The notes under the pieces were generated by a model. That model saw only the letters and a program-made list of their open reading frames with translations. It was not told the DNA's origin and ran no database searches. Below, piece after piece: positions 1-6,034 of a stretch of 64,000 nt of DNA. The position numbers were made by a program, and so were the translations under genes. The DNA lies in NCBI GenBank assembly GCA_938074605.1, contig CALJEI010000010.1:1-64000 (forward strand), written 5' to 3'. The stretch's first letter is position 1. Every line of letters starts with the position of its first letter. The stretch comes from an uncultured Ignisphaera sp. Its GTDB lineage: Archaea > Thermoproteota > Thermoprotei_A > Sulfolobales > Ignisphaeraceae.

Positions 1-959
1 TTTTTAGCTAAATAGTGTTGAGCAACATCATCAATACCCTTTTGACAAACAACAACAGTAGCACCAACAGAAGCAAGCTTCTCAACCATATCCCTAAGGA
101 TCTTAGCTTCTTCTTCAAGGAATGATCTTATCTGCTCTGGAGATGTTATATTTATTTTTGCTGTGATATCAGGCTTTTCTATCTCTAGTGGTGCATCTAG
201 AAGAGCTATTTTTGCATTCTCAACCCTTCTAGGCATTGCAGGATGCACAACCTCCTTATCAAGAACAATACCATAGACAAGTTGGCTATCTAGTAGGCTT
301 CCCCCTCTCTTCTTCTCTATTTTAACCATATCAAGCTTAACATCGTATGTTCCATCGCTTCTCTTTTCTGCTACTGTAAATGCTGCTTCAAGGATCATAT
401 CCATTAGTCTATTCACAACATCAGGCGTCGCTATGTATTTACTGGCAAGAGCTGTATATAGTGCTTTCTTTAACTCCTGTTTAGCTTTTTCTCTATCCTC
501 CTGTTTCTCAAGATCTCCAACAAATACCTTAATAGCTATTTCATCAAGTATTTCTAACGCTTTATTAAGAGCCTTCTTATAACCTTCTATAATTGTTGTT
601 GGATGCACACCTTGGTCAAGGAGCTGTTCAGCTTTCTCTAATAATGAGCCAGCTAATACTACAGCTGACGTTGTGCCATCTCCAACTTCAGCATCAACAG
701 CTTTAGCTGCTTCCACTAGTAGCTTTGCTGATGGATGTTGAACTTCCATTTCTTTGACAATGGTGGCACCATCATTTGTTACTGTTATATCTCCAAAACT
801 ATCTACAAGCATTTTATCTAATCCTCTAGGACCTAGGCTGGTACGCAGTATTTCTGCAAGTACTCTTGCTGCCATTATATTAGCTCTCAATGCTTCTTTT
901 CCATGTGTTCTAGATGTGCCCTCCTTGAGTATCAGCACGGGTACTCCATATAATGCCAT
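1..959 (-). CDS. thsA: Thermosome subunit (group II chaperonin), C-terminus outside window
   Basis: This is the N-terminal part, about 319 residues, of a cytosolic ATP-dependent group II chaperonin that folds proteins in a double ring. The reading frame is open to the window edge, so the C-terminus is missing. The protein starts [20 protein letters not shown] and carries the nucleotide-binding motifs [21 protein letters not shown] and [12 protein letters not shown], which are diagnostic of the family. The ATG at 959 directly precedes these conserved residues and lies about 35 bases downstream of a TATA-like element. Which subunit type (alpha, beta or gamma) cannot be told from this fragment, so the symbol is generic. 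Confidence 0.96.
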
Positions 960-992
960 ATCTTACACCAATTGAGTTCAACTGCAGAGGTT

Positions 993-1045: not shown

Positions 1046-1912
1046 TTATATTGCATACTCCACAAATTTACTACAGTAGGAACATGTATCACTAATGTCA
1101 TAAGAGCCGCAATATTTACATTTTTTAACATTTCCAAATATGTAGCTCTGTAATAATTCAACTGATTTACTGCTGGAATACATTAATTCTGGGGAATTTT
1201 TAAGGATAATTCCCATATTCTTGAAAAATTTTGCTTTTTCTTCAAATTCATATCCATTTAAATCTAGTTCCATTATATGCTTACTTGTTAGTGTTAAATA
1301 GAGTACATCATCTGAAACTACATAATAGAAAGGTCTCGTTACCTTTATATTGTCTACTTCTCTAATAGGCAATCCTTCACTAAAAATGGTCCTAGATGTA
1401 GTTAGTAGTCCAAATAGCGATAAAGTAGTTAGGTCATTTCTATATAGTGGAACTGCTATAAACTCTATACCGATTTCTCTCGCAATTTTTATCGCCATAT
1501 ATTCTCCGTATTTAAGCCATTCTATGAAATCCTTTGTTGTAAATTTATCATCTACCTCAATTATTCTATAACTGTTAGCCCTTATGATATTACTGATTTT
1601 CTTACAATCAATATACCTATTAAAGCATAGCACTGTGATGTTCACATTAAAATCTCTTATAGTGGATTCATATATTGAAAGGGCTACTATGGACAGAAGT
1701 GGTTTATTTGCCATTATTAGAAACATGATATTGCTATTCTTTTTAATCATTTTATAGTAATGGAGCGTTCTTCTAACCTGCTTAACTACACTACGATATA
1801 AGCATAATCTGCACAGTTTTTCCCCTGATACCCTTCGCTTAAATACCGCATGTCTCTTTCTACAAGAGCTGCAGTATACAGGCTCCCCTTCAGTATACAT
1901 TTTTATAGTCAC
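1046..1912 (-). CDS. TtuA/Ncs6-like zinc protein with a degenerate PP-loop
   Basis: The 288-residue protein has the frame of the tRNA 2-thiolation enzymes TtuA/Ncs6. An N-terminal zinc knuckle (YCSSC at about 13-17, then LCRLC) is followed by a Rossmann-like middle and a C-terminal CKYCG...CSYC zinc ribbon. The stretch KVTRPFYYV resembles the family's conserved K-PLRYV segment. The ATP-binding PP-loop motif SGGxDS is absent; the equivalent position reads MFLIMANKPLLSIVAL. The mid-protein cysteines expected for the iron-sulfur site are not obvious either. It is therefore probably not a standard thiolase. It is the last gene of a three-gene operon and its ATG overlaps the upstream stop by 4 bases. 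The function is unknown; a structural or tRNA-binding role is inference. Confidence 0.6.
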   Translation of the reverse strand: MTIKMYTEGEPVYCSSCRKRHAVFKRRVSGEKLCRLCLYRSVVKQVRRTLHYYKMIKKNSNIMFLIMANKPLLSIVALSIYESTIRDFNVNITVLCFNRYIDCKKISNIIRANSYRIIEVDDKFTTKDFIEWLKYGEYMAIKIAREIGIEFIAVPLYRNDLTTLSLFGLLTTSRTIFSEGLPIREVDNIKVTRPFYYVVSDDVLYLTLTSKHIMELDLNGYEFEEKAKFFKNMGIILKNSPELMYSSSKSVELLQSYIFGNVKKCKYCGSYDISDTCSYCSKFVEYAI

Positions 1913-2286
1913 TTTACAATAAATTTTATGTCTATGGAGTATCTCTTTAAACTATCTTTAATTCCTCTCTTTAACATTTCTATATCATTAGTGATATTCT
2001 CAGTAACATCCTCCTGCATAAATATACATGTCCCATTTAAAAAAACCTTTATAAGAGTTCTTCGTTTAGCCACATCAGTTTCAAATTCTTGTAATATGTT
2101 TTTAACAACCTTTACATCTGCTATAACTACCTTGACATTCAAATTGAGTTGGGATTCAAGATTTCTTAAGAGTGTTTCTAAATATTTCCACAATTTCACT
2201 TCTTTATTAGCTATCCCCATGATAATTAGATTGTTTCTGGAAATAGCTTCTCTATACTCGTTTTCATCAAATAGTTCTATTACCAT
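1909..2286 (-). CDS. Thioredoxin-fold-like protein without CxxC
   Basis: This 125-residue protein is not recognised with certainty. Its pattern of strands and helices suggests a thioredoxin fold: a hydrophobic strand NLIIMGI, an amphipathic helix, a strand VKVVIADV, then TLIKVFLNGTCIF, which recalls the thioredoxin segment PTxxxFxNG. No CxxC redox motif is present, so disulfide chemistry is unlikely. The gene overlaps the upstream zinc-ribbon gene by 7 bases and the downstream TtuA-like gene by 4, so the three are probably co-translated and may act together. The fold assignment is inference. Confidence 0.5.
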   Translation of the reverse strand: MVIELFDENEYREAISRNNLIIMGIANKEVKLWKYLETLLRNLESQLNLNVKVVIADVKVVKNILQEFETDVAKRRTLIKVFLNGTCIFMQEDVTENITNDIEMLKRGIKDSLKRYSIDIKFIVK

Positions 2287-3146
2287 TTAGTGTTACGCAC
2301 CTCTATCAATGACTTTATGAACTCTTTTTCACTATTACTTAAAATAACCTCTATATCTAGGGGATCTCTAGTCTCTATTGGCGGTTTTACACCTATGCTA
2401 CTTAAGTAGACATATCCATAACTAATAGATTTCATGATTTCATCAATACTATAGTTTTTAACAAAATCCTTTAGTAACTCTACAAAGTTTACATACTCCT
2501 TGAGAGTTTTTTCAGAGACCGTAGAACCACATACTATGCATGTAAGATCAGGCATTAGAGCATTGAATTTGCATATGGGACAGGAAACTGGTAGTACTGT
2601 ATATCTCTTTGCAATCCAATACCTATTCCAACATTCTCTTAATCTATCAATTAAATCACTATGCCCCCTAGTCACAAGCTCCTTATACAATCTTGGAGCA
2701 TATGTTAAAATGGCTTCACCAATATTATTAACTATAAATTCAATTTGAGCATCCGTCAACACATCTCTTAACTCAAGGATCATGGCAGCTATAATAGGAT
2801 ATAGGAACGTTATATTCCTTCTAAATCTTCTGATAATAACATCTAAGTCAAGTGTTGAAGATTCACCTCTAATCATATCAATAATAGTGGTAGCTATCCT
2901 AATAAATTCCTCATTTGACAACTCTAAGAATCGTAACCCAAAAGCTTCTATAAGCTCATTTAAATGTTTTTCAACCCAACCTTCAGTATCTATATACCTC
3001 TTTTTTAGCGTTGATGTCTTCTTGTTCCTAATCCTTACTTCGTCAGTTTCCATTATATTTTGTTTTTTACTAGATGCTTTACCTGCTTCTTTTTCTTCAT
3101 CACTACTTTTTCCCCTTCTTACGCGGGGCAATAGTAGGACACCCAC
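2280..3146 (-). CDS. Zinc-ribbon protein of unknown function, first gene of the TtuA-like operon
   Basis: I do not recognise this 288-residue protein. It begins with a basic, charged, probably disordered stretch of about 50 residues rich in Lys, Glu and Ser. A mostly helical domain follows. Near residue 190 there is a zinc-ribbon-like CPICKFNALMPDLTCIVC, and then a helical C-terminus. The gene heads a tight operon with the thioredoxin-like and TtuA-like genes (7-base and 4-base overlaps), and a roughly 280-base AT-rich spacer separates it from the divergent ribonucleotide reductase gene. The combination suggests an RNA- or protein-binding partner of the TtuA-like protein, but this is inference. 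Confidence 0.55.
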   Translation of the reverse strand: MGVLLLPRVRRGKSSDEEKEAGKASSKKQNIMETDEVRIRNKKTSTLKKRYIDTEGWVEKHLNELIEAFGLRFLELSNEEFIRIATTIIDMIRGESSTLDLDVIIRRFRRNITFLYPIIAAMILELRDVLTDAQIEFIVNNIGEAILTYAPRLYKELVTRGHSDLIDRLRECWNRYWIAKRYTVLPVSCPICKFNALMPDLTCIVCGSTVSEKTLKEYVNFVELLKDFVKNYSIDEIMKSISYGYVYLSSIGVKPPIETRDPLDIEVILSNSEKEFIKSLIEVRNTKW

Positions 3147-3445
3147 TATATACTATTTCTAGTCTAGAACCTAGATATAGTTACACACTTTATAATTATG
3201 GTTGATCCTATTCTCTTACTTTATTTTATTAGATTTAAACAGTTCTAAGTAGTTAATATATTAATGTCCTTTTTAATAATTATATCAACATGAATACTAT
3301 TTCTAGCTTTAGATTTTATGTTAATAAAATGTAATACTAGAATATTATCGACTATTATGTAAAATGATACAGTTTCTCCTGACAGTTCTAGTTATTAGCT
3401 CTGAAAGTGTATTACCTCTATAGCAAGTAGTTGGCTGGGAGCTAC

Positions 3446-6034
3446 ATGGATGGAGAATCGCTAATGGATACAAACCCCATAGATATGATGCAGGCTAATG
3501 TACCTAATATAATTGTTATCAAACGTAATGGAGGTAGAGAACCATTTAAAGTAGGTAAGGTAATACTAAGTATACTCAAGGCGTGTAATAATCAATGTAG
3601 TCAAAGTGAAGTTAGTGAAATAGTAAATAGTTTAGTGGAAGAGATAAAGGGTCATACAGAAGTTTTAACAAGTGAATTAGTCGATAGAATAGAAAAAATA
3701 ATGATTATGAAAAGTTTTGAAAATCCTAAATGGCTTGAGATAGCCAAGATATATGAACTTGGAAGAATTTATAAGGATGTTTATGGACGAGGAAAAATAG
3801 AGATTGATCCAAAAGACCTTATGCTTACATTTCCAGCTATAAAGGTACTTGAAAGTAGATATTTATTGAAAGATCTTGAAACAGGACGCTTTCTTGAAAC
3901 TCCACAAATTATGTTTAGGAGAGTTGCAAAAGTAATAGCCCGTGTAGAATATGAGTATTGTTTAAAACTTCATAAAGACAGTAATAGTTGTAATGACGTT
4001 GCCATCTATTGGGAAGAGAAGTTTTATGAGCTTATGAATAGCCTTAAGTTTCTACCAAATTCACCAACATTAATGAATGCTGGCACTAGGTTAGGAATAC
4101 TATCAGCATGTTTTGTTATACCTGTTAGAGACTCTATGGTTACAGAGGATGGTGAAGGAATCTACGATGCACTAAGAGCACAAGCTGTAATATTTCAACA
4201 TGGTGGTGGAACAGGCTTTGATTTTTCTGAATTAAGGCCTGAGGGTGACATTGTTATTTCAACAGCAGGTGTGGCAAGTGGTCCTATATCATTTATGAAA
4301 GTATTTGATGTAAATACAGAAATTGTTAAACAGGGTGGTAAAAGAAGAGGCGCTAATATGGGTGTACTACATGTATGGCACTCCGATATAGAGAAGTTTA
4401 TTGAAGCCAAAAGCGGTAAATTAAAAGATACTGCTTTGCAGAACTTTAATATTAGTGTTGGAGTATATGATTATTTTATGTATGCTGCATTAAATGGTGG
4501 TCTAGTTCCCCTTATAAATCCCAGAAAAACAAGACTACGCAGAGACAAAGGAAATGATTCTAGATATTATGCAATTGTACGTGCAAGAGACTATATAAAT
4601 AACGAATTGATTCAAGAAGAAATATTTAAGGAGTTAGAATCCAACAACAATAGTATCTGGCTTGATGAATCAATTATAATTACATTAGATGAAGCTATGG
4701 CAATAGCTGAAGAGAATAATGCTATAATGGGGTTCATAGATGCTAAAAAATTGTTTGAAAAGATTGTTAAAAATGCGTGGGATTCTGGAGACCCTGGGCT
4801 ATTATTTATTGATACAATAAATAGGAGACATCCAACATGGTATTTAGGGAAAATAAATTCAACAAATCCATGTGGAGAACAGCCATTACTTCCATGGGAA
4901 AGCTGTAACTTGGGAAGCATAGATCTCTCTAAGTATGTCTATACCGATGCTGAGGGTAGCCCCAGGATAGCATGGCGTGCACTTGCTGAAGATCTCAAAA
5001 CAATACTTAGATTTATGGATAACGTGATAGACGCTGCTAAATGGCCGCTTCCACAACTTGAGCTAATGGCTAAAAGAACTAGAAAAATTGGTATTGGTGT
5101 AATGGGATGGGCTTATATGTTAATAAAATTGGGTATACCCTATGATAGTGTAGATGCTGTATACTTAGCATATAGTCTTGCTGAATGGATAGAATACAAT
5201 CTTGCGCTAGCTAGCATAGAGCTTGCAAAAGAACGAGGCCCATTTCCAGCATACGATGCCTCTAAATATAGACCTACATGGCTAACATCTAAACCAATAG
5301 AAGAGTTACTTAAGATAACAAAAATAGATGAAAAACCCTCTCAAAGAGTTTTATCGATAATTTTAGATAGACCTCCACTAGACTGGAATTTCATTGAAGA
5401 GCTACGTATAAAGTATGGAATTAGAAATGCTGCTTTGACAAGCATAGCACCAACTGGTACCATAAGTATTATTGCTGGTACTAGCTCAAGCATAGAACCT
5501 CTCTTTGCTGTTGCATATGAAAGGCATGTATCTATTGGTATATTTATTGAAATAGATAGACTCTTCTTAGAGTATTTAAGAAATTATGATTTAGACGACC
5601 CTCAGCTAATAAAGAGCATTGCTGAAAAGGGTAGCATTGATGATCTATTCTATGTTCCAAAATCCTTAAAAAAACTATTTAGAACAGCCCACGATATTGC
5701 TCCAAAATGGCATCTCCTTCATCAAGCTGCATGGCAACAATGGGTATGCGGTGGTGTATCAAAGACTATTAACTTAAAATTTGATGCTACAACCGATATG
5801 GTTAGAGAAATATATACATTAGCATGGCTTCTAGGGTGTAAAGGAGTTACCATATACAGGGATAAATCTAAAGCTCAGCAAGTCGTCTACATAGGTGTAA
5901 AAATGAGTCAGACAGCACAAAAAGATGAAAAACAACAGGAATCAAAACAAAAGTTTACAATAGCGCTAGGAGAAACTCTTGCTGATGCTATAGAGATGTC
6001 TACTCAGCAAGGCTGCTCCACATGTAGATATTAA
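3446..6034 (+). CDS. nrdJ: Adenosylcobalamin-dependent (class II) ribonucleotide reductase
   Basis: The enzyme reduces ribonucleotides to deoxyribonucleotides in the cytosol using B12 as the radical source. The protein is about 862 residues. An N-terminal ATP-cone allosteric domain ([18 protein letters not shown]) is followed by the barrel. The barrel holds the first redox cysteine in [10 protein letters not shown], the radical loop [18 protein letters not shown], and [21 protein letters not shown]-terminal CSTC pair near the end would regenerate the active site. No separate small subunit gene is nearby, which fits class II. I chose the ATG at 3446 because GGGAG precedes it; an in-frame TTG at 3431 would add five residues. 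The gene stands alone, divergent from the TtuA-like operon. Confidence 0.95.

Follow-up and report, generated by a model that had tools for sequence, protein, structure and literature searches.

A conserved archaeal NcsA/TtuA homologue without catalytic motifs as a possible non-catalytic partner of a tRNA thiolase

What use does an archaeal cell have for a tRNA thiolase homologue that has lost its catalytic parts? The question is raised by a locus at one end of a 64,000-nucleotide stretch of DNA (the window) from an uncultured Ignisphaera sp., which belongs to contig C10 of an archaeal genome of 1.63 Mb (G000). Three genes, here called A, B and C, lie there on the minus strand together with a thermosome gene:

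1..960, minus strand: thermosome (group II chaperonin) gene, truncated by the window edge, assigned by BLAST cluster and synteny
1046..1900, minus strand: gene A, a pseudo-thiolase homologous to NcsA/TtuA but with no PP-loop, 284 aa from ATG 1900 or 288 aa if GTG 1912 is used
1060..1112, minus strand: C-terminal zinc site of gene A, CKYC ... CSYC
1660..1725, minus strand: region of gene A replacing the PP-loop, IMFLIMANKPLLSIVAL, as aligned with the canonical SGGKDS of the same genome
1800..1875, minus strand: N-terminal zinc site of gene A, CSSC ... SGEKLCRLC, retained in almost every relative
1909..2286, minus strand: gene B, a thioredoxin-fold protein without CxxC, 125 aa
2280..3131, minus strand: gene C, with a basic disordered N-terminus, a helical domain and a zinc ribbon (CPIC...CIVC), 283 aa from TTG 3131

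The open reading frames as read cover 2280-3146 (C), 1909-2286 (B) and 1046-1912 (A), all on the minus strand. The preliminary description of this DNA had reported overlaps of 7 and 4 bases between the three genes. The 7-base overlap of C and B is present as ATGGTAA, while the 4-base overlap of B and A is obtained only if A starts at GTG 1912, which is uncertain and disfavoured by the relatives. These start at a methionine matching ATG 1898-1900, suggesting from sequence comparison that A starts at ATG 1900 rather than at GTG 1912, with an 8-base gap toward B. Given that the relatives of C begin with M-P/A-R/K, C probably starts at TTG 3131 rather than at GTG 3146. An 867-aa open reading frame divergent from C (window 3431-6034) was read by sequence as ribonucleotide reductase, and its homologues also adjoin the A/B/C block in many relatives.

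A scan with the single A sequence returned few matches. By contrast, a profile of 30 A proteins matched NcsA of Methanococcus maripaludis (PDB 6SCY) and TtuA PH0300 along their entire length (E=4.6e-17 and E=7e-17, respectively), and NcsA and TtuA were the only significant PDB matches of this profile. The idea that A belongs to a ribosome or another complex of solved structure was rejected on this ground. The AlphaFold model of A (pLDDT 91, pTM 0.90) recovered the same fold, with NcsA 6SCY as the best PDB match (E=4.4e-14, TM 0.71) and with NcsA or TtuA chains taking all of the first seventeen places. We aligned 66 distinct (non-redundant) A proteins with 40 canonical catalytic homologues for motif comparison. 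Opposite VLIGLSGGKDS of the catalytic homologue in its own genome, A of the window has IMFLIMANKPLLS. An SGGxDS PP-loop was found in 0/66 A proteins in comparison to SGG.D in 40/40 canonical ones, and a hidden PP-loop recoverable by closer alignment was thus rejected. The GHNxDD catalytic H/D segment is degenerate in the A proteins, and the complete three-cysteine [4Fe-4S] triad occurs in none of the 66. By contrast, the N-terminal zinc cysteines are retained in 65-66 and the C-terminal ones in 54-57 of the 66 proteins, and A of the window carries four CxxC halves making up two zinc sites. A is thus like NcsA 6SCY in its full-length fold, both zinc sites and the helical C-terminal part, but lacks the PP-loop, the GHNxDD segment and the cluster site. 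Similarly, it shares fold and zinc domains with TtuA, the U54 2-thiolase of Pyrococcus (PH0300) and Thermus, but has lost the catalytic elements and persists where the sole catalytic copy is NcsA-type. The earlier claims of a TtuA-like protein without SGGxDS or other catalytic parts that keeps both zinc sites were therefore borne out by profile, fold and alignment.

Loss of the old active site raises the possibility that A is an enzyme with a new one on the old fold, built for example on a cysteine pair at Cys2/Cys3-like positions in one family. Many members of that family (f5) do conserve a cysteine near cluster Cys2 (..CxRYERAW..) and another near Cys3 (..PLC..). However, the pair is missing from A of the window and from most other families, and apart from the zinc module at the N-terminus and a single zinc cysteine at the C-terminus, E238 is the sole near-invariant residue of A, making a new active site very improbable. 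The pair itself (CxRYERAW ... PLC), conserved in the A proteins of f5 and its relatives at loci L069-L104, may be what is left of a metal site or may form a disulfide.

In the phylogenetic tree, the A proteins form one clade apart from every catalytic homologue (support 100/99), and a single loss of the catalytic parts would fit this one branch. The dN/dS values of A (0.10-0.19), which are comparable to those of TtuA-type (0.12-0.18) and NcsA-type (0.07-0.10) genes, clearly point to purifying selection, and together with an open frame in almost all genomes they rule out a decaying pseudogene. With a median path length of 4.4 versus 2.1, the evolutionary rate of A is about double that of NcsA. 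In genome G092 (L194 4609-5420), an A-like gene is split into two frames, which may reflect a sequencing error or a loss that happened recently.

Which catalytic enzyme, then, accompanies A? The genome of the window encodes one catalytic homologue, of NcsA type, at a locus away from A (L001), and it also encodes E1-like ThiF proteins and a ThiS/MoaD-like carrier. The NcsA model found a strong match in 121/121 genomes searched in the order, and the majority of related genomes possess one NcsA-type and one TtuA-type copy. In two other genomes with A (G091 and G020), the single canonical copy falls in the NcsA-type clade. Because these two and the genome of the window have the NcsA type alone, A does not depend on a TtuA-type enzyme. 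One catalytic homologue is present in the genome of the window and in G008 while genus mates have two, possibly because U54 thiolation was lost or because the assembly has a gap.

Archaeal U34 thiolation has been described as the work of one homodimeric enzyme, which serves as a model for the poorly tractable human Ctu1/Ctu2; Ctu2 is without the cluster cysteines, keeps its Zn sites and has been modelled in place of the second NcsA monomer (PMC10067955). Like Ctu2/Ncs2, A is paralogous to a catalytic thiolase of its own cell, has no cluster cysteines and keeps its zinc sites (PMC10067955), and the co-existence in one cell of a dead paralogue, its retained zinc domains and a catalytic NcsA is, by analogy, the Ctu2/Ctu1 pattern. 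By contrast, the large extra regions described for Ctu2 are missing from A, whose partner is putative. The CTU2 Pfam model (PF10288) had no A match over the cut-off and weak matches elsewhere in the genomes. Ctu2 orthology of A was not recovered by this route, and membership in the Ctu2 family is therefore not claimed. In the best reading, A would resemble Ctu2/Ncs2 in its working and is not demonstrably its orthologue.

From this analogy we infer a physical partner, tRNA binding and a role in thiolation for A. Our main reading, to which we give a probability of roughly 0.45, is that A serves NcsA either as the non-catalytic subunit of a thiolase dimer or as a tRNA-presenting partner, with B and C as a separate pair. 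A would pair with the catalytic NcsA, whose gene lies at another locus, bind tRNA via a basic surface and the zinc domains kept at its N- and C-terminal ends, and help to position U34 in the NcsA active site, as has been proposed for Ctu2/Ncs2 with Ctu1/Ncs6. The zinc domains could also serve a stand-alone tRNA- or RNA-binding protein without a partner (a tRNA chaperone, a competitor or a thiolation regulator), given that the zinc sites are the best-conserved part of A, survive even in the short form found in family f11, and belong to a basic protein (pI about 9). However, A retains its entire Rossmann-like core in most families, with a confidently predicted fold; this exceeds what zinc-finger RNA binding would need, and we consider such a stand-alone binder unlikely. 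Several observations also weigh against the partnership of A with NcsA. Families f6, f7 and f9 have NcsA without A, indicating that A is not universally needed; the A and NcsA genes are not adjacent; and A of f11 is reduced to about 246 aa with a very divergent core. The mirror-tree comparison did not single out NcsA (partial correlation 0.31 for A-NcsA given C, and 0.48 for A-C given NcsA) and was non-discriminating for naming the partner of A.

A rival reading follows the preliminary description in joining A, B and C into a single RNA-binding or regulatory complex, with A no longer tied to thiolation. Conservation of the three genes extends over the GTDB order and to several families of the class. 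Within the order, A-type proteins occur in families f1, f2, f3, f4, f5, f8 and f10, and in Sulfolobaceae-like f11 as a shortened form of 240-250 aa with a very divergent core; outside the order they occur in f13, f14 and f16. No A-type protein was found in f6, f7, f9, f12 or f15, and the matches to A that were read outside the class are catalytic SGGKDS enzymes. A tally of 54/60 genomes was not taken as presence of A since its weak matches include catalytic paralogues. Nearly all genomes of the order have C, in a single copy, but it is absent from f8, f12 and f15. In the gene order that recurs, the thermosome gene is followed by A and then by B and C, A being tail to tail with B-C, and the thermosome gene is a frequent neighbour of A across the class. 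A locus probably belonging to Sulfolobus acidocaldarius (L158 3974-4714, plus strand) has a shortened A-like gene, coding for 246 aa, that adjoins a thermosome gene and is tail to tail with C; Saci_1401 is the thermosome alpha gene of this species (PMC10653856).

A joint complex would be consistent with the C>B>A operon, which is present in all Ignisphaera-type genomes read; with A and C lying no more than 1.5 kb apart in 38 of the 65 genomes that have both, in several families and in both orientations; and with A-C having the highest partial distance correlation. However, this operon, with A co-directional with C-B, is limited to the window's family and is on its own no proof of a complex, while A is inverted and tail to tail with C-B in most other families. 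The genes are separable elsewhere: f8 has A but neither C nor B, f9 and f7 have C-B but no A (there, B-C adjoin the thermosome gene), f6 has C alone of the three, and in f5 and f11 no B lies between A and C. In f2, C-B lies behind a DRG-type GTPase (MMR_HSR1, MMR_HSR1_Xtn and TGS) and A at another site, which is next to the thermosome gene in G018. Moreover, the adjacency of A and C may be inherited gene order, because the thermosome gene is about as constant at the locus. The proposal of one joint functional complex is thus not supported; we regard it as a weak and rather doubtful reading. Given the varying gene order and presence among families, the locus is an old syntenic block and not an obligate trio.

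The properties of B and C themselves agree with the earlier description. The best PDB matches of the B profile are thioredoxins (E=1.5e-5), Pfam Thioredoxin matches 5 of 22 B members (best 7e-8), and a redox CxxC is present in 0/52 distinct B proteins, so the reading of B as a redox-dead thioredoxin-like protein holds, its fold at profile level. B thus has its fold in common with thioredoxin at this level only, and several members carry a cis-Pro-like LPxxKLxxxG segment, but B differs by the missing CxxC and by an additional conserved C-terminal helix segment. As for C, the described zinc-ribbon protein with a disordered basic start was recovered: pLDDT is below 50 at about residues 10-41, the first 45 aa have a pI of 10.5, the AlphaFold model is helical and confident from about residue 50 onward, and CPIC...CIVC forms the ribbon. 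A structure search with the confident model found no PDB match for its fold (best E=0.73), and C as a component of a solved ribosome or complex was rejected, with no PDB chain better than E=0.04 against the C profile. In loci of one lineage (L044-L058, L186 and L188), C-B directly follows a DRG-family GTPase and RNase HII without A, and this GTPase link may serve as a lead to a translation-related role of C. In the best reading, C and B are a conserved pair separate from A at a common locus.

Reading A pointedly as a Ctu2-like partner adds to what the preliminary description had proposed. In a limited literature search, where absence is not proof, no title or abstract on an archaeal PP-loop-less NcsA paralogue was found. 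Across hyperthermophilic archaea, selection has conserved A, in the way that eukaryotes retain a dead Ctu2 alongside a working thiolase. Such a conserved dead paralogue would offer a stable, expressible system for the role of a non-catalytic thiolase subunit, and would let one ask if such pairs arose once or twice. S. acidocaldarius, in which the shortened A appears to adjoin the thermosome alpha gene, represents a direct test case. We tentatively propose that Thermoproteia possess a heterodimeric NcsA-A tRNA thiolase, parallel or ancestral to eukaryotic Ctu1/Ctu2; if this is true, single-protein U34 thiolation would not be a general rule in archaea.
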